NCBI RefSeq assembly: GCF_014874095.1
Contig: NZ_JADBEB010000001.1
Span: 1,178,001 to 1,242,000 of the forward strand
Direction of reading: 5' to 3'
Source: Plantactinospora soyae
GTDB taxonomy: Bacteria > Actinomycetota > Actinomycetes > Mycobacteriales > Micromonosporaceae
Length of the DNA stretch: 64,000 bases
Shown: piece after piece, positions 32,883 to 39,724 of the stretch
Layout of the letters: every line of letters begins with the position of its first letter
Position numbering within the stretch: the stretch's first letter is position 1
The notes under the pieces: model-generated
Seen by the model: the letters and a program-made list of their open reading frames with translations, nothing else
Told to the model about the DNA's origin: nothing
The model's database searches: none
Made by a program: the position numbers and the translations under genes

Positions 32883-32989
32883 CCGGAAGGCCGACGGCGC
32901 ACAGCGGTGATGTACCGGTCCGCAGCCGATAGGTTCGACCCAACGGATTGACGACATTCGGCGTCCGGCGTACCGGAGGGGGGACCTTG

Positions 32990-33493
32990 ATGGCCCGTGG
33001 TGCGTTCGGCGACGCCGAGGAGTTCGCTCGGGCGCGCCTGGACGCGCTGCGGCGGTTCGCGTACCTGATCAGCGGCAGCGCCGCCGAGGCGGACGACCTG
33101 GCCCAGATCGCGGTGGTCGAGGTCTGGCAGCGGTGGCGCAAGGCCGGGGACAACCCCGAGGCGTACGCCCGGCAGGTCATCGTGACCCGGAACGTGAGCC
33201 GGTGGCGACGGTCGCGCCGGGAGGTGCCGAGCGACGAGGTCGACCACCGGCCCGACGATCCGGCCGGAGCCGTGGTGACCAACGGCGCGCTGTGGCAGGC
33301 GTTGCAGGAACTCGGCAAGCCCGAACGCACCGTCGTCGTGCTGCACGTGCTCTACCGGTACACCTTCAGCGAGATCGCGGCGATCTGTGGCGATCCACCG
33401 GGCACGGTTTCCAGCCGGTACGCGAGGGCCAGACGGGCCCTGCGAACACATCTGGCAACCACCCAGCCGGCGATTCGGAGCGCACGTGGCTGA
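32990..33493 (+). CDS. SigE-family (ECF-like) RNA polymerase sigma factor
   Basis: 167 residues from ATG 32990, behind GGAGGGGGG. Region 2 spans about 5-75 (ALRRFAYLISGSAAEADDLAQIAVVEVWQRW) and region 4 about 100-160 (LGKPERTVVVLHVLYRYTFSEIAAICGDPPGTVSSRYARARRAL). This is the two-domain layout of the SigE group common in streptomycetes and Micromonosporaceae. Its last 8 bp overlap the start of the membrane-anchored solute-binding protein gene, implying coupled translation and probably a functional partnership. The overlapping product has the topology of an anti-sigma factor. Confidence 0.9.
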   Translation: MARGAFGDAEEFARARLDALRRFAYLISGSAAEADDLAQIAVVEVWQRWRKAGDNPEAYARQVIVTRNVSRWRRSRREVPSDEVDHRPDDPAGAVVTNGALWQALQELGKPERTVVVLHVLYRYTFSEIAAICGDPPGTVSSRYARARRALRTHLATTQPAIRSARG

Positions 33494-34928
33494 CAAGATC
33501 GGGCCTGTGGAGGATGGGAGGCTCGCCGAGGAGGTCGTCGCCACCCTCACCCAGGCGCAGGCCGCGCTGCCACCGGCCGCTCCCGGCGCCATCGCGACGA
33601 TCCGCGAGCGCTACCGGCGCAGACGGCGGCAGCGCGCCGGGCTCGCCAGTGCGGCGGTCGCGATCCTGGTCCTGGCGGTCACCCTGACCGGGGCGGAACT
33701 GACCCGGGGGCGGGGGCTGTCTCCGGTGCCCCCGGCGAACGGCGGTACGGCGACGATCCGGGTGTGGGCCATCACCCCGCCGGGGCAGGACTCGGCCCTG
33801 CGGCAACTGGTGGACCGGTACAACAGGTCGGCCGAGGCCGACGTCGAACTGTTCACCTTCGGCAACGACGACTACAAGGAGAAGCTGCGTACCTCGGTCG
33901 ACTCGTCGGACGGCCCGGACGTCTTCGTCAGCTGGGGCGGCGCCACCCTCGCCCGGCTCGCCCGTGCGGGTCGACTGGCCGACCTGGCCGGGCCACCGGC
34001 CGCCGTCGACCGGTTCCTGCCCAGCGCCCTGGCCGGCGGCATGGTCGACGGCCGGCAGTACGGACTGCCGATGAGCGGTACGCATCCGACGGTGCTCTTC
34101 TACAACAAGGACGTCTTCACCCGGTCCGGGCTGACTCCGCCGCGCAGTTACGCCGACCTGCTGTCCCTGGTGGACGAGTTCAAGTCCGACGGGATCACCC
34201 CGTTGGCGCTGGGCGGCGCCCAGGGCTGGACGGAGCTGATGTACGTGATGTACCTGGCCGAACGGATCGGCGGCCCCGGGACCACCGCCGACATCGTGGA
34301 AGGCCGGCCGGGCGCCTGGTCGAAACCGGCGGTGGCGCAGGCGTTGCTGGCCGCGCAGGATCTCGCCGAGCGGGGCGCGTTCGGTGACGACTTCTCCTCC
34401 CTCGGCTACGACGACGGCGGCGCGCCGCGCCTGCTGGCGACCGGGCGGGCCGCGATGCAGCTGATGGGAACCTGGGAGTACCCCACCCAGCTGGCCCAGA
34501 ATCCGGACTTCGTCCTCGGCGGCCGACTGGGCTGGGTGCCGTTCCCGAGCATGGCCGGCGGGGCGGGAAACCCGGCGGACCTGGTCGGGATTCCGGCCCA
34601 GTACTTCTCGGTCACCGCCGCCAGCCGACACCGGGAGACCGCGATCGAGTTCGTCCGGGACGTCACCGCCGACGCCTACCTCGACGACCTGGTCACCGAC
34701 GGCGAGGTGCCCCCGGTCACCGACGCCGCCGACCGGCTGCGGAGTACGGACCACGCCGGGTTCGCCGTCTCCGTGCACGAACTGGTGGCGCGGGCGCCGT
34801 CGTACAGCCTCGCCTGGGACCAGGCGCTGGAGCCGGGCACCGCGACGAGGTTGAACGCCAACCTGCAACGGCTGTTCCGATCGGAACTCACCCCGGAGCA
34901 GTTCGCGGCGGCGATGGCCGGCGGCTGA
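33486..34928 (+). CDS. Single-pass membrane protein with extracytoplasmic ABC-type solute-binding domain, candidate anti-sigma factor
   Basis: 480 residues from GTG 33486. Residues 1-50 are cytoplasmic, with a short helix (RLAEEVVATLTQAQAAL) and a basic stretch ERYRRRRRQR. A transmembrane helix spans about 53-73. Residues 86-480 form a family 1 sugar solute-binding domain (IRVWAITPPGQDSALRQLVDRYN, DVFVSWGGATLARLA, PTVLFYNKDVFTRSGL, MQLMGTWEYP, NPADLVGIPAQYFSV). There is no lipobox and no ABC permease or ATPase gene next to it. The start lies inside the sigma factor gene, the position where anti-sigma genes normally sit. I infer that the cytoplasmic N-terminus holds the sigma factor and the outer domain senses sugar, possibly xylan fragments given the xylanase gene downstream. 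The N-terminus shows no zinc-binding Cys/His motif. Confidence 0.85.
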   Translation: MADKIGPVEDGRLAEEVVATLTQAQAALPPAAPGAIATIRERYRRRRRQRAGLASAAVAILVLAVTLTGAELTRGRGLSPVPPANGGTATIRVWAITPPGQDSALRQLVDRYNRSAEADVELFTFGNDDYKEKLRTSVDSSDGPDVFVSWGGATLARLARAGRLADLAGPPAAVDRFLPSALAGGMVDGRQYGLPMSGTHPTVLFYNKDVFTRSGLTPPRSYADLLSLVDEFKSDGITPLALGGAQGWTELMYVMYLAERIGGPGTTADIVEGRPGAWSKPAVAQALLAAQDLAERGAFGDDFSSLGYDDGGAPRLLATGRAAMQLMGTWEYPTQLAQNPDFVLGGRLGWVPFPSMAGGAGNPADLVGIPAQYFSVTAASRHRETAIEFVRDVTADAYLDDLVTDGEVPPVTDAADRLRSTDHAGFAVSVHELVARAPSYSLAWDQALEPGTATRLNANLQRLFRSELTPEQFAAAMAGG

Positions 34929-35134
34929 CGTACGGCCACATAGCACCATCGACGACGTTCGAGAAGGCCACGACCGCGATCGATTGGTGTCGGATCTCCG
35001 ACAGCACGACGTGCAGCAAATCGATGCCCGGCTCGCGTTCCGGGAGGGATGCACGCGCACCCGTCCCCCGTGCGTGACAACGCCGGCCCTGCCGGCAACT
35101 GGCTACGAACCACACCCGTGGAGGTTTCGAACGG

Positions 35135-36301
35135 ATGAGAAAGTTTCGGATCGTTCTCGTCGGCGTACTGGCCGCCGGTTCGCTTTACTCGATCGGACCA
35201 TCGACCGCCACCGCCGCGCCGACGAAGGTGACCGGCGGGATCGCCGCGCAGGTGGCGACCGGAGGCAGCGTCGCGCACGTACCCCCGGCCCCGTCCACGG
35301 ACCTGCCGCTGCGGACGCTGGCCCGCGAGCACGGCCTGGGCATCGGCACCGCGGTCGACATGACCGCCCTGGACGCCGACCCCGAGTACCGCTCCCGGGT
35401 GGCCCGGGAGTTCTCCGCGGTGACCGCGGAGAACGTGATGAAGTGGGAGTCGCTGGAGCCGGCCCGGGGTGAGTACAACTGGGCGCCGGCCGACGAGCTG
35501 GTCGACTTCGCCCGGCGCAACGGGCAGAAGGTGCACGGTCACACCCTGCTCTGGCACAACCAGCTTCCCGCCTGGCTGACCCAGGGCGTCGCCGACGGCT
35601 CGATCAGCCCCGCCGAGCTGCGTACCATCGTCCGGAACCACATCACCACCGTGGTGAAGCACTTCCGGGGCAAGATCCGCGCCTGGGACGTGGTCAACGA
35701 GGCGTTCACCGACGGCGACAGCCCGGTACTGCGTGACACGATCTTCCGGCAGCACCTCGGCCCGAACTACATCGCCGACGCCCTGCGCTGGGCGCACGCC
35801 GCCGACCCGAGCGCCAAGCTCTTCCTGAACGACTACGCGACCGACAACATCAACCCGAAGAGCACCGCGTACTACGAGCTGGCCAAGCAACTGCTCAAGC
35901 AGCGGGTCCCGCTGCACGGCATGGGCTTCCAGGGCCACCTGGACCTCCAGTACCCGCTGCCGATCGACGCGCCGGAGAACCTGCGCCGGTTCGACCGGCT
36001 CGGCCTGCAGACCGCGTTCACCGAGGTCGACGTGCGGTTCTTCCTGCCGGTCGACACGTACAAGACGGCCGGACAGGTGGGCAGCTTCAACACGCTCCTC
36101 CAGGCCTGCCTGCTCACCCCGCGCTGCGTGATGTTCACCGTGTGGGGCTTCAGCGACAAGTACTCCTGGGTTCCCGGCTGGTTCGACGGCCAGGGCTCGG
36201 CCACCCCGATGGACGAGAACTTCCAGCCCAAGCCGGCCTACCGGGGCCTGCAGCAGGTACTCGCCGTCGCCTCGGACCCGAACAGTAGGCGCGGCTTCTA
36301 A
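35135..36301 (+). CDS. Secreted GH10 endo-1,4-beta-xylanase
   Basis: 388 residues. The signal peptide (MRKFRIVLVGVLAAGSLYS, cleavage near ATAA at 25-28) precedes a GH10 (beta/alpha)8 catalytic domain. The acid/base is Glu189 in WDVVNEAF and the nucleophile Glu297 in FTEVDVR. Other family marks are AENVMKWESL, GHTLLWHNQ, FLNDYATDN and TVWGFSDKYSW. There is no carbohydrate-binding module. It hydrolyses xylan outside the cell. The start has GGAGG upstream. The 206-bp gap after the solute-binding protein gene should hold a separate promoter, and the neighbouring sigma factor is a candidate to read it. Confidence 0.95.
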   Translation: MRKFRIVLVGVLAAGSLYSIGPSTATAAPTKVTGGIAAQVATGGSVAHVPPAPSTDLPLRTLAREHGLGIGTAVDMTALDADPEYRSRVAREFSAVTAENVMKWESLEPARGEYNWAPADELVDFARRNGQKVHGHTLLWHNQLPAWLTQGVADGSISPAELRTIVRNHITTVVKHFRGKIRAWDVVNEAFTDGDSPVLRDTIFRQHLGPNYIADALRWAHAADPSAKLFLNDYATDNINPKSTAYYELAKQLLKQRVPLHGMGFQGHLDLQYPLPIDAPENLRRFDRLGLQTAFTEVDVRFFLPVDTYKTAGQVGSFNTLLQACLLTPRCVMFTVWGFSDKYSWVPGWFDGQGSATPMDENFQPKPAYRGLQQVLAVASDPNSRRGF

Positions 36302-36398: not shown

Positions 36399-36647
36399 TC
36401 ACTGTCCGGCGTCCGGTGGCTGGCGCGGCCTCAGCAGGACAGCCGAGACCACCTGGCGGAGCAGGACGATCACCGCGGCACTGGCGAGATCGATCCAGCC
36501 CTGCGCGGCGGCGAGCCGGATCAGGCCGGCGGCGGTCAACAGGTCGAGCAGCACCCGGATCGCTACCCGCCAGGAGCCGGTCGTCAGCAGGACCACCGCC
36601 GCCGAACCCAACGCCAGGGCGGTGACCAGGGTGCCGAGCGGCTTCAT
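36399..36647 (-). CDS. Small membrane protein paired with DUF1622
   Basis: 82 residues with two or three hydrophobic segments (LGTLVTALALGSAAVVLLT; IRVLLDLLTAAGLIRLA; AAVIVLLRQVVSAVLL). The ATG overlaps the stop of the upstream DUF1622 gene by 4 bp, so both are likely made together. The sequence resembles a shortened DUF1622 unit, suggesting that the two could form one membrane complex. The function is unknown. Confidence 0.7.
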   Translation of the reverse strand: MKPLGTLVTALALGSAAVVLLTTGSWRVAIRVLLDLLTAAGLIRLAAAQGWIDLASAAVIVLLRQVVSAVLLRPRQPPDAGQ

Positions 36648-37084
36648 CGATGGTCCGTCGCGCTCTCGGATCGCCGATCGGCCGCCGGATCGCCGGGGCG
36701 CCGGTCAGCGGCCGGATCGCCAGCTCGCCGGTCAGCGGCCGGGCCGCCGAGTTGTCGCTGTTCCGAGCGGATCTCCCGGCCGAGGAAGTAGTTCAGCGCG
36801 GTCCGGATCGTGGCGATCGCGGCCAGCCGGCCGAGTTGCCCGAAGCTCGGCGAGACGGCGGTACGCAGGATGTCCGCGGCGAGCTGGAACTCCAGCCCCA
36901 GCGTGAGGAACCGGCCCAGCGACAGCCGGATCGGGGTGAAGACGGCGGCGGAGCGGTGCCGGATCCCGGTCACCACGAACCGGGCGGCCGTCCAGACCGC
37001 TCCAATGAAGATCACCGCCGCTCCCACCGCCTCGACGATGGTGACCAGCACCTGGACGACGCGCCCCAGCCACTCCTCGGGCAA
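36644..37084 (-). CDS. DUF1622 membrane protein with repetitive C-terminus
   Basis: 146 residues from TTG 37084, a weak start that may be wrong. Two transmembrane helices (about 10-38 and 55-75) contain the DUF1622 pattern VEAVGAAVIFIGAVWTAARF and RLSLGRFLTLGLEFQLAADIL. The C-terminal 35 residues are a 9-residue tandem repeat built on PAADRRPGD, encoded by a 27-bp DNA repeat. DUF1622 proteins have no assigned function. Confidence 0.8.
   Translation of the reverse strand: MPEEWLGRVVQVLVTIVEAVGAAVIFIGAVWTAARFVVTGIRHRSAAVFTPIRLSLGRFLTLGLEFQLAADILRTAVSPSFGQLGRLAAIATIRTALNYFLGREIRSEQRQLGGPAADRRAGDPAADRRPGDPAADRRSESATDHR
36662..36755. repeat. 27-bp in-frame tandem repeat, about three units
   Basis: The run GCCGGTCAGCGGCCGG recurs 27 bp apart, at 36700 and 36727, with a more diverged unit to the left. 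It encodes the PAADRR(A/P)GD repeats at the C-terminus of the DUF1622 protein. The copy number could vary between strains. Confidence 0.8.
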
Positions 37085-37095
37085 CGCGGACCCGC

Positions 37096-37863
37096 CTACC
37101 TCGACCAGCGGGTCTGTGGCCGGGTAAGCCGCTCACCGTCGACGATCAGGTCGGTCCGCTCGTTGAAGAAGCACACCATTCCGGCGATCGGCTGCAACAC
37201 GTGACTGGGGAAGTCGTACGCCCAGGCGACGTCCTGGTGGGTGGTGCCGTCGGTCCGGACCGACCAGTAGTTGCTGGTCCTCCCCTTGTACGGGCACGCC
37301 GTGATGGTGTCCGTGGCGGTCAGCCGGCCGAGATCCACCTCGGTCCGGTTGAGGTAGTAGCGGACCGGTACGCCGGTCTCGAACACCAGCACGGGTGACC
37401 GGGTCTCGGCCAACAGCGTGCCGTCGAGTTCGACCCGTACGTGCCGGGTCGAACGCAACGCCTCCACCCTCGTGTACGGGTCGCGGGGATGGACGAAGAC
37501 CTCCTCGTCCTCCTCGAACCAGGCGTCGAGGGCGTCCCACTCGAAGCGCACCATGTCCGGCAGCCCTTCGATGGACTTCTCGGTGTGCACCCGGACCACG
37601 CCCGGGTGGTAGGTGTCACCGACCCGGAGACCGTACTGGCGGGCCGTTCCCCGGCTGTACTGCTCGACGTCCTGCTCGTCGACCAGCATCTCCTGGTTCA
37701 CGTCCACGAACGGGATGTAGTAGTGCGGGTAGTGCGGCCACTCCCAGACGTACCGGGCGTTCCTGGTGTCCAGCACCATCTCGCCGTTGAGGACGGCGCG
37801 GATCCGTCGGGCCGCCGGCTCGACGTGGTCGATCGGAACGATCGTGCGTGGATAGTCGTTCAC
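37096..37863 (-). CDS. DUF427 family protein with two DUF427 units
   Basis: 255 residues from GTG 37863, with AGGAGAG upstream. Two related units are visible: the first around VLNGEMVLDTRNARYVWEWPHYPHYYIP, and the second around VELDGTLLAETRSPVLVFETGVPVRYYL followed by the hallmark CPYKGRTSNYWSV and VAWAYDFPSHV. DUF427 proteins are small cytoplasmic beta-tent proteins of unknown function. The gene lies 76 bp downstream of the GH15 gene in the same direction and may be read through from it. Confidence 0.85.
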   Translation of the reverse strand: MNDYPRTIVPIDHVEPAARRIRAVLNGEMVLDTRNARYVWEWPHYPHYYIPFVDVNQEMLVDEQDVEQYSRGTARQYGLRVGDTYHPGVVRVHTEKSIEGLPDMVRFEWDALDAWFEEDEEVFVHPRDPYTRVEALRSTRHVRVELDGTLLAETRSPVLVFETGVPVRYYLNRTEVDLGRLTATDTITACPYKGRTSNYWSVRTDGTTHQDVAWAYDFPSHVLQPIAGMVCFFNERTDLIVDGERLTRPQTRWSR

Positions 37864-37939
37864 GGAACTCTCCTGTCGCCACCGGATCGGCACGTACTGG
37901 TCGGGGTTCGGTCGGTCGGGCCCGGTCGCTCCACGGCGG

Positions 37940-39724
37940 TCACACCGCGGCGGGCTCGGTCGTGGTGAGCTCCCAGGCCGCGATGATCAGTCCGATGTGC
38001 GAGAACGCCTGTGGGAAGTTGCCGAGCTGCTCGCCGGTGCCCGGATCGACCTGCTCGGCGAAGAGCCCCAGGTCGTTCGCGGTGCCGGCGATCCGGTCGA
38101 ACATCGCGGCGGCCCGGTCCCGCTCGCCGGCCAGGGCGAGGCAGTGCACCAGCATGAACGAGCAGAGGGTGAAGGCCGCCGGATCGGTGTCCCAGCGCCG
38201 GAGCAGGCCGTCGTCGGACAACTCCTCCTCGACCCGCCGGATGGTGGCCCGCATCCGGTCGTCGGTCGCCGGCAGGAAGTCGACGATCGGCATGATCAGG
38301 ACGCTGGCGTCGAGCTTGTCCGAGCCGAACGCGCCGGTGTACGCACCCCGGTCGGCGTTCCAGCCCTCCCGCAGGATCGTCTCCCGGGCCTCGTCCCGGG
38401 CCGCCGCCCAGCGGGCCAGGTCGGCGGCGTCCCCGATCCGGTCGCCGAACCGTACCGCCCGGTCCAGGGCCGCCCAGCAGAACACCTTGGACGACAGGTA
38501 GTGCCGCTGCGCGTCACGCGCCTCCCACATCCCGGCGTCCGGCTCCCGCCAGCTCGTCGCCGCCTGGTCGGCGAGGGAACTGAGCAGGTCGCGTACCTCC
38601 GGCGGCAGCGGGTCGAGGTAATCGCGCAGCCGCCAGGCCGCGTCCATCACCTCACCGAGTACGTCGAGCTGCCGTTGCCGCCACGCCTCGTTGCCGACCA
38701 CGACCGGCGAGCTGCCGGCGTACCCGCGCAGCGTCTCGATCCGCCGCTCGGTCAGGTCCCGCTCCCCTTCGACCCCGAACATGATGGGTACCGGCTGCCC
38801 GTCGACCTGGCCGACCGCCGAGGCCACCCAGCGGAACAGCCGGGTCGCCTCGTCCGGGCAGGCCGCGACCCAGAGCGCCCGCAGGGTCATGCTGAAGTCC
38901 CGCAGCCAGGCGAACCGGTAGTCGTAGTTGCGGTCCCCGCCGATCCGCTCCGGTAACGAGGTGGTCGCCGCCGCGATGACGGCGCCGCTCGGCTGGTAGG
39001 TGAGCCCCTGCAACACCAGGGCGTTGTGCCGGACCAGGTCCGGATAACGCCCCTGGTAGTCGTGCAGGCCCGTCCAGGACCGCCAGCCCTCGACCGTGTC
39101 GCCGAGTGGGTCCCGGGCGTCGAGCCCAGCCGGTGGTACGTCGTGGTACGTCGGCCGGTACGCGAGGACGAACGTCCGCCGCTGCCCCGCGTCGATCGCG
39201 AACCGGGCCGACGCGTCCGGGCCGGAGCAGGTCAGCGGCACCGGGCTGGTCATCGTCAGGGTGGTCGGTCCGGCCGTCGCGACGAGCGTGCCGTTGCGTG
39301 GGAGGAGGTAGGCGGTGCGGCGGCCGTACTCGAACCGGGGGCGGTACGTCAACGTCAGCGGAACCGTTCCCGATCTGCCCTCCACCACCCGGACCAGCAC
39401 TCCCGGGGACCGCCGGGCGATCTGGTGTCCCCGGGAACCGGGTTCCAGCACGAGTCCGTCGGTCACCGACACCTCGCCGTGCGCGGTGCTGAAGACCGTA
39501 CGCAGCACGAGCGTGTCGGGCAGGTACTCGCGTCGTACCTCGAACCGGTCGTCGCTCGGGCGGATGGACCAGTGGCCGCCGTCGGAGTCCAGCAGCCGGC
39601 AGAACACCGAGGGCGCGTCGAAGCGCTCCGGGCACCACCAGTTGACCGAGCCCTCCCGGTCGACCAACGCCGCGCTGCGCCCGTCGGCCAGCAGCCCGTG
39701 ATCGGCGATGGCGGCCTTACCCAC
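37940..39724 (-). CDS. Glycoside hydrolase family 15 protein (trehalase/glucoamylase-like)
   Basis: 594 residues, the usual size of bacterial GH15 trehalase-like enzymes. It starts IADHGLLADGRSAALVDREGSVNWWCPERFD, a typical N-terminal beta-sandwich opening. The (alpha/alpha)6 domain has SLPERIGGDRNYDYRFAWLRD, MFGVEGERDLTERRIETLRGY and MWEARDAQRHYLSSKVFCWAALDRAV. No signal peptide is seen, so it acts in the cytoplasm. Mycobacterial relatives hydrolyse trehalose. The start is GTG 39724. Confidence 0.9.
   Translation of the reverse strand: MGKAAIADHGLLADGRSAALVDREGSVNWWCPERFDAPSVFCRLLDSDGGHWSIRPSDDRFEVRREYLPDTLVLRTVFSTAHGEVSVTDGLVLEPGSRGHQIARRSPGVLVRVVEGRSGTVPLTLTYRPRFEYGRRTAYLLPRNGTLVATAGPTTLTMTSPVPLTCSGPDASARFAIDAGQRRTFVLAYRPTYHDVPPAGLDARDPLGDTVEGWRSWTGLHDYQGRYPDLVRHNALVLQGLTYQPSGAVIAAATTSLPERIGGDRNYDYRFAWLRDFSMTLRALWVAACPDEATRLFRWVASAVGQVDGQPVPIMFGVEGERDLTERRIETLRGYAGSSPVVVGNEAWRQRQLDVLGEVMDAAWRLRDYLDPLPPEVRDLLSSLADQAATSWREPDAGMWEARDAQRHYLSSKVFCWAALDRAVRFGDRIGDAADLARWAAARDEARETILREGWNADRGAYTGAFGSDKLDASVLIMPIVDFLPATDDRMRATIRRVEEELSDDGLLRRWDTDPAAFTLCSFMLVHCLALAGERDRAAAMFDRIAGTANDLGLFAEQVDPGTGEQLGNFPQAFSHIGLIIAAWELTTTEPAAV

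Follow-up and report, generated by a model that had tools for sequence, protein, structure and literature searches.

We analysed a 64,000-nucleotide stretch of the 9.7 Mb genome of Plantactinospora soyae (contig NZ_JADBEB010000001.1, positions 1,178,001 to 1,242,000; hereafter the window, to which positions refer) and found that a gene for an extracytoplasmic function (ECF) sigma factor overlaps one for a membrane protein carrying a solute-binding domain of the ATP-binding cassette (ABC) transporter type, with a GH10 xylanase gene following. The pairing of sigma factor and partner, its conservation, the affinity of the binding domain and a promoter element shared between loci were all computed here. 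The complete chain, in which the partner of the pair inhibits the sigma factor, a xylo-oligosaccharide is the signal and the xylanase is the target, appears to us rather probable.

A sigma factor gene overlaps a gene for a membrane-anchored binding protein

The pair is made up of the following features.

32990..33493, + strand: ECF sigma factor gene, with sigma2 and sigma4 domains; reading frame open from TTG 32948
33486..34928, + strand: gene for a putative membrane anti-sigma factor with a xylo-oligosaccharide-binding-protein-like outer domain; 480 residues, GTG start
33486..33641, + strand: residues 1-52 of the partner, presumed cytoplasmic module; two predicted helices (low confidence), Arg-rich end
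33642..33704, + strand: residues 53-73, presumed transmembrane helix, from hydropathy
33753..34922, + strand: residues 90-479, BxlE-like solute-binding domain; W248, Y308 and W330 match the sugar platform of BxlE

The sigma factor contains only sigma2 and sigma4 domains, and its scores with Pfam models Sigma70_r2 (36.7 bits) and r4_2 (44.9 bits) were both above cut-off. It also exceeded the cut-off of the NCBIfam sigma70-ECF model (69.9 against 42.9 bits), which places it among the ECF sigma factors. The SigE family model TIGR02983 was its top NCBIfam match but scored below its threshold (115 bits where 141.55 are required), so the label "SigE-type" used in the initial annotation is right as to the nearest family and approximate as to membership. 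Translation likely starts at ATG 32990, which follows a GGAGG-like site (by eye); this codon was favoured over TTG 32948 because the latter falls within the presumed promoter. The sigma frame ends at 33493 and the partner starts at GTG 33486, giving the 8-bp overlap that had been claimed.

The partner had been described as having a short N-terminus, one transmembrane helix and a full binding domain, with neither a lipobox nor ABC partners, and hydropathy, domain matches and composition bore this out. Its most hydrophobic 19-mer spans residues 52-70, SBP_bac_1 covers residues 102-391 (E 7.5e-37), and residues 1-52 hold ten Arg/Lys and no Cys or His. The whole protein is without Cys and therefore has no lipobox, and no sugar ABC permease was found among 11 neighbouring genes that we scanned in the region from 26 to 42 kb (a selection of the reading frames there). 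With both hallmarks of an ABC-importer lipoprotein (a lipobox Cys and adjacent sugar permeases) missing, we rejected an ordinary ABC lipoprotein. The zinc class of anti-sigma factor (ZAS, class I), whose usual motif had also been reported absent, is ruled out because residues 1-52 are free of Cys in all 14 partners described below. A structure model of the partner had a mean predicted local distance difference test score (pLDDT) of 63.8; most blocks of the binding domain lay at about 70-88, with drops below 50 at residues 356-369 and 406-447.

The pair is conserved in three genera

When 300 family genomes were searched with the partner, 137 had a match at E 1e-40 or better, and from these we examined 30 loci, the P. 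soyae locus included. At 14 of the 30 loci the N-terminal module was present and a sigma gene lay directly upstream, overlapping the partner gene by 8 bp (six loci), 4 bp (five) or 13 bp (two) or, in L010, standing a few bases apart depending on the start chosen. At the other 16 loci the extension was absent, a lipobox-like Cys was present, and no such sigma gene was found within 1.5 kb. The same sigma was likewise absent from the flanks of 20 more listed matches, picked because their alignments ran deepest into the extension (query position 41 or lower), and from 20 phylum loci drawn from 396 genomes searched. A profile of the 14 sigma factors retrieved exactly the same 14 genomes out of 354 family genomes (E 1e-38 or better). 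Conservation of the pair, which the initial annotation had proposed as a test of its idea, was thus found in 14/14 genomes holding this sigma factor. This conservation led us to reject a chance neighbourhood, and the pair is very likely a functional unit.

The 14 pairs fall into three GTDB genera, with seven in the host's own genus (7/7 of its genomes among the 300), two in Micromonospora and five in an Actinoplanes-type genus. Among the best 80 of 100 relatives in a species collection, ten sigma factors shared at least 65% identity with ours, all Micromonosporaceae by title, and the remainder shared at most 37%; among named contigs, identity was highest for Plantactinospora alkalitolerans (96%), P. 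endophytica (87%), Micromonospora sp. HM5-17 (86%) and P. mayteni (85%). The 14 extended proteins formed one clade (support 99/98) inside the lipoprotein-type solute-binding proteins when 42 binding domains, several rows of which were flagged for unusual composition, were placed in a tree. Because they form one group nested among lipoprotein-type domains, the binding protein was, most simply, recruited once.

Two observations on individual loci may be added. The sigma factor of genome G169 (L026:806-1492) has a repetitive insert of RLRGTEDG-like units ahead of the C-terminus, which its close relative L023 lacks. Elsewhere in the P. soyae genome (L005, G000:C1:7112433-7116248), a reading frame for a 306-residue sigma-like protein is followed on the same strand, after about 150 bp, by a lipobox-bearing solute-binding protein gene and then by a permease-like frame (by eye). 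This candidate for a second pair was rejected as ordinary, since its genes do not overlap and it has both a lipobox and a permease-like frame.

The outer domain resembles xylo-oligosaccharide-binding proteins

The best match of the partner by sequence in the PDB was BxlE (3vxb, E 3.4e-98), followed by 4g68, 3zkk and 8xba. According to PMC12125979, BxlE, XBP1 (4g68) and BlAXBP (3zkl) are beta-1,4-xylo-oligosaccharide-binding proteins. Entries 8xba to 8xbc, presumably the XylC of the same paper, have titles that name xylobiose or xylotriose complexes. A Foldseek search with the partner model returned xylo-oligosaccharide-binding proteins as its first seven matches, so that BxlE, XBP1, BlAXBP and XylC are nearest in both sequence and fold. 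The sugar site of BxlE includes Trp204, Tyr264 and Trp286 (PMC8233162), and these align with W248, Y308 and W330 of the partner. Both Trp residues are invariant in 14/14 partners and Tyr308 is kept in 12/14. Because the nearest relatives bind xylo-oligosaccharides and the Trp/Tyr/Trp platform is retained, a xylo-oligosaccharide is our best guess for ligand and signal, and a probable one, which narrows the sugar sensor of the initial annotation to a ligand class.

A similar inner module accompanies other SigE-like sigma factors

The SigE-family model matched the P. soyae genome (G000:C1) 77 times at E 1e-10, and we examined 30 of these loci, not counting the sigma factor described here. In 28 of them the sigma gene was accompanied by a gene on the same strand whose product had an N-terminal segment and a transmembrane helix, usually with an Arg block between the two; L057 fitted this pattern poorly. 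Twenty of the 28 partners overlap their sigma gene by 4 or 8 bp, counts that lean toward 4 bp because partner starts were picked nearest to a 4-bp overlap. A hidden Markov model of the N-termini of these other partners scored all 14 binding-protein partners above the mean of shuffles that preserved the Arg block and transmembrane helix, with 0 to 7 of 300 shuffles reaching the real score. Pfam assigned BNR or PD40 repeats, LytR_cpsA_psr, Germane/Gmad2 or TruB_C to the outer parts of some of the 28, gave no match for most, and found a binding protein in none.

Our partner shares with this class its same-strand position beside the sigma gene, N-terminal segment, Arg block and transmembrane helix, and its simplest reading is a modular membrane regulator with a swapped sensor. 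The similar module in partners of other sigma factors strengthens the anti-sigma interpretation first offered for this gene: the partner likely regulates its sigma factor, and we infer that residues 1-52 bind it.

A composite promoter element points to the xylanase gene as a probable target

Downstream of the pair, and ahead of it, we located the following features.

32940..32965, + strand: degenerate candidate autoregulatory promoter before the sigma gene, CCAACGG-15-CGTC
34988..35003, + strand: dyad TGTCGGATCTCCGACA, presumed operator, also found before the sigma gene in two other genera
35013..35040, + strand: ECF-like promoter, GCAGCAA (35013-35019), 16 nt, CGTTC (35036-35040); presumed sigma target
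35135..36301, + strand: GH10 xylanase gene, presumed regulon member, with a signal-peptide-like start (by eye)
36644-39724 of the window, - strand: GH15-family gene with a trehalase-like N-terminal domain, plus DUF427 and DUF1622 genes, behind the xylanase gene

The xylanase gene starts 206 bp after the partner gene. Its product matched GH10 at E 2.3e-97 and carries WDVVNE and TEVDVR, which we take to be the catalytic motifs of a GH10 xylanase, in keeping with the secreted xylanase of the initial annotation. An alignment of the seven intergenic regions preceding GH10 genes showed an invariant TGTCGGATCT..GACA dyad with GCAGCAA downstream of it. The composite element consists of the dyad TGTCG-N6-YGACA, a gap of exactly 9 nt, GCAGCR, and CGTY 15 or 16 nt past the heptamer; GCAGCR and CGTY so spaced have the form of an ECF promoter. 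This composite stands before the xylanase gene in 7/7 genomes of the host's genus and before the sigma gene in 7/7 Micromonospora and Actinoplanes-type loci. In its right half the dyad reads CGACA at 10 of the 14 loci, TGACA at L011, L012 and L014, and AGACA at L015. Sigma promoters in the host's genus had a strong -35/-10 pair in 5/7 (ranks 1-2).

A weight matrix built solely from the seven sigma promoters of the other genera was scored over 127,880 positions of the window. For the dyad, the xylanase site ranked first at 20.99, followed by 20.73, presumably for this dyad read on the opposite strand, and 14.19; its -35/-10 score was also the highest, and with both parts combined it scored 36.72, the next site reaching 7.21. 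Before the 30 other SigE-like sigma genes, the top -35/-10 score was 10.9.

Across the 14 pair genomes a loose form of the composite matched 27 times. Each genome had one match at the locus, always with a 30-nt geometry, and of the 13 matches found elsewhere a single one shared this geometry. The strict form was present in 13/14 pair genomes (that of G130 being one base off) as against 17/286 other family genomes, a difference with a Fisher p of 8e-14 that is not a true probability because the genomes share kinship. The 17 occurrences outside pair genomes are about at background, since a reversed-pattern control matched in 15/300 genomes, and relatives of the sigma factor, partner or xylanase are encoded at none of them. 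Without the dyad, the -35/-10 pattern gave 49 matches in seven genomes against 15 for its reverse, and 4 against 4 in one genome; we dropped it as a regulon finder and claim no wider regulon. The shared element makes the xylanase gene a probable target of the co-encoded sigma factor.

Two variants of the dyad were also seen. One at genome position 2110140 has a different spacing. Upstream of the sigma genes of L023 and L026 (G179:C1:2530010-2530053 and G169:C20:34447-34490), GCAGC flanks the dyad on both sides, 9 nt away; this amounts to an extended inverted repeat and could serve a divergent promoter.

The target enzyme may differ between genera

The GH10 gene is at the locus in 7/7 genomes of the host's genus. 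The proposed link between pair and xylanase gains from the shared promoter element, and as a matter of neighbourhood it holds in one genus only. At the five Actinoplanes-type loci, an alpha/beta-hydrolase-like gene with a signal-peptide-like start (both by eye) lies about 20-45 bp behind the pair, encoding about 535 residues.

L072:12012-13622: alpha/beta-hydrolase-like gene
L073:3601-5205: alpha/beta-hydrolase-like gene
L074:12105-13721: alpha/beta-hydrolase-like gene
L075:5503-7098: alpha/beta-hydrolase-like gene
L023:2920-4374: alpha/beta-hydrolase-like gene

The protein had no Pfam match at E 0.001 and showed weak similarity to lactonases, lysophospholipases or esterases; it could be an esterase acting on a plant polymer. 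The target enzyme may have changed between genera, with sensor, sigma factor and promoter element retained.

Proposed mechanism and alternative explanations

We propose that the partner acts as an anti-sigma factor that crosses the membrane once and whose short basic N-terminal module would hold the ECF sigma factor encoded beside it at the membrane. The outer domain of the partner, recruited from the binding protein of a xylo-oligosaccharide ABC transporter, would sense xylan fragments, and binding of a xylo-oligosaccharide would lift the inhibition as the domain closes, whether or not proteolysis is involved. The freed sigma factor would then transcribe the GH10 xylanase gene from the GCAGCR/CGTY promoter, and the xylanase would produce more ligand in a feed-forward loop. 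A second regulator probably binds the dyad that lies immediately before this promoter. The inhibition, the ligand and the direction of the response are what we infer in this scheme. We are evenly divided on a broader proposal: that a transporter-type binding protein, recruited once as a direct anti-sigma sensor, reads free surface xylo-oligosaccharides without transport and switches on a xylanase through a dedicated sigma factor whose promoter element is almost locus-specific, and that, by extension, the dozens of SigE-like pairs in actinomycetes serve as a plug-in platform for sensors with exchangeable outer domains.

Several results weigh against these proposals. The dyad precedes the sigma gene in 0/7 genomes of the host's genus, and the -35/-10 pair there is weak in P. 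soyae and in L011 (ranks 13 and 14). The lead of the xylanase site by -35/-10 score was slight (15.73 against 14.84 for the next window site), the -35/-10 pattern alone matches four to ten times per genome, window matches to the element are at chance level once three mismatches are allowed, and the bounds of the motif were set after both groups of loci had been seen. The hits of the reversed control count here as well. No GH10 gene was found in the available flanks (1.5 to 10 kb) of the seven Micromonospora and Actinoplanes-type loci. In the partner, Tyr308 is replaced by Leu in L023 and L026, and the helices predicted for the N-terminus (residues 8-27 and 35-73) have pLDDT values under 50. 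Values of dN/dS (the ratio of nonsynonymous to synonymous substitution rates) were an unremarkable 0.24-0.68 and did not set the parts apart.

It is possible, if unlikely, that the pair controls the sigma factor and that the xylanase gene answers to a separate dyad-binding factor, of LacI or other type, or is co-transcribed from upstream, the ECF-like promoter being incidental. The dyad has the inverted-repeat form that suits a dimeric regulator and not a sigma factor, being perfect (TGTCG-N6-CGACA) at 10/14 loci and carrying a TGACA or AGACA half at the other four, and the xylanases of Streptomyces are considered to be controlled by the LacI-type BxlR (PMC12772271). No terminator was seen between the partner and xylanase genes, so read-through into the latter is possible, a further point against the proposed scheme. 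However, the -35/-10 pair of the xylanase site by itself ranks first in the window, and the sigma promoters of other genera show it with the same 9-nt gap to the dyad. An exact match to the BxlR motif is missing from the window; AGAAAGTTTCG, with one mismatch, lies at 35138, just inside the xylanase start.

A second class of explanation concerns the partner itself. Its N-terminal part might be a long or twin-arginine translocation (Tat) type signal or an anchor, the protein being a lipobox-less binding protein that feeds a distant ABC transporter, with the sigma overlap reflecting co-transcription. The run of Arg ahead of the hydrophobic stretch is superficially Tat-like, and the relatives are lipoprotein-like, several with twin-Arg signals (by eye). 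We consider this very improbable: the extension is kept in 14 proteins, occurs solely beside this sigma factor among the loci examined, and resembles the N-termini of other sigma factors' partners, whose outer domains are not binding proteins; nor do the scanned neighbours include a sugar permease. The sign of the response cannot be read from sequence, and the ligand could instead strengthen inhibition, turning the xylanase off as product accumulates, or the partner could be a co-activator. Such an arrangement seems improbable to us, given that expression of sigI6, in the analogous SigI6/RsgI6 system of Clostridium thermocellum, rises with cellulose and xylan (PMC4711584).

Near-matches to the BxlR motif are frequent in the window (129 against 97 expected, with 0/100 shuffles as high), and because they are so many a single one carries little weight. 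One of them, CGATAGGTTCG at 32927-32937 before the sigma gene, differs by one mismatch from the motif on the minus strand and is identical in L009, L010 and L012.

Significance and comparison with known systems

Control of hemicellulase genes by ECF sigma and anti-sigma factors is described as "less understood" (PMC10766802), and this locus offers a small system open to experiment, for which a ligand class, a promoter and a target gene are predicted. An outer domain that defines the signal may help to explain the dozens of SigE-like sigma factors with unlike membrane partners in this genome, where 77 matches and dissimilar partner domains would amount to a large repertoire of sensors. Sugar biosensors could also make use of a binding-protein sensor that is coupled to a sigma factor.

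Most SigE-like pairs of this genome resemble ours in having a same-strand gene that touches or overlaps the sigma gene and encodes a short N-terminal segment and transmembrane helix, but none of the 28 has a binding protein outside. The outer domain itself resembles BxlE, the xylobiose-binding protein of Streptomyces thermoviolaceus (3vxb, 3vxc), in fold, sequence and aromatic platform. However, BxlE serves an ABC importer with BxlFG, whereas the partner has the N-terminal module, no lipobox and no sugar permease among the scanned neighbours.

CnrY takes part in metal sensing, and class II anti-sigma factors have a short two-helix cytoplasmic peptide that wraps around the sigma factor. The very short cytoplasmic part of our partner, with two helices predicted at low confidence, may recall CnrY-type (class II) anti-sigma factors (PMC7406223). 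Like ECF52 and ECF53, the pair would be an instance of actinobacterial ECF signalling with carbohydrate-related outer domains, but in those groups the carbohydrate domain and transmembrane helix are fused to the sigma factor, whereas here there are two proteins (PMC8999054, PMC10766802); their carbohydrate domains are predicted, still without experimental validation (PMC10766802). Among open-access papers listed by title and abstract, in searches only partly aimed at the question, we met no description of a binding-protein-type anti-sigma factor.

The closest parallel is SigI6/RsgI6, in which a GH10-type outer domain binds xylan and the sigma factor drives xylanase promoters and its own (PMC4711584). 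Both systems combine a sigma factor with a membrane protein whose outer domain recognises, or here is predicted to recognise, carbohydrate, and the targets of SigI6 include xylanase genes and the sigma gene. The differences are that SigI belongs to another sigma group and the sigma factor here is ECF, that the N-terminus of RsgI has about 165 residues against 52 before the transmembrane helix here, and that a polymer-binding, GH10-derived module in RsgI6 is replaced by a transporter-type binding protein. With its 52-residue N-terminus, ECF partner and no Pfam match to RsgI, the protein falls outside that family. The SigI/RsgI-like logic with a different sensor fold that was originally suggested agrees with this comparison: by analogy, the pair would work like SigI6/RsgI6 without being a member of that group.

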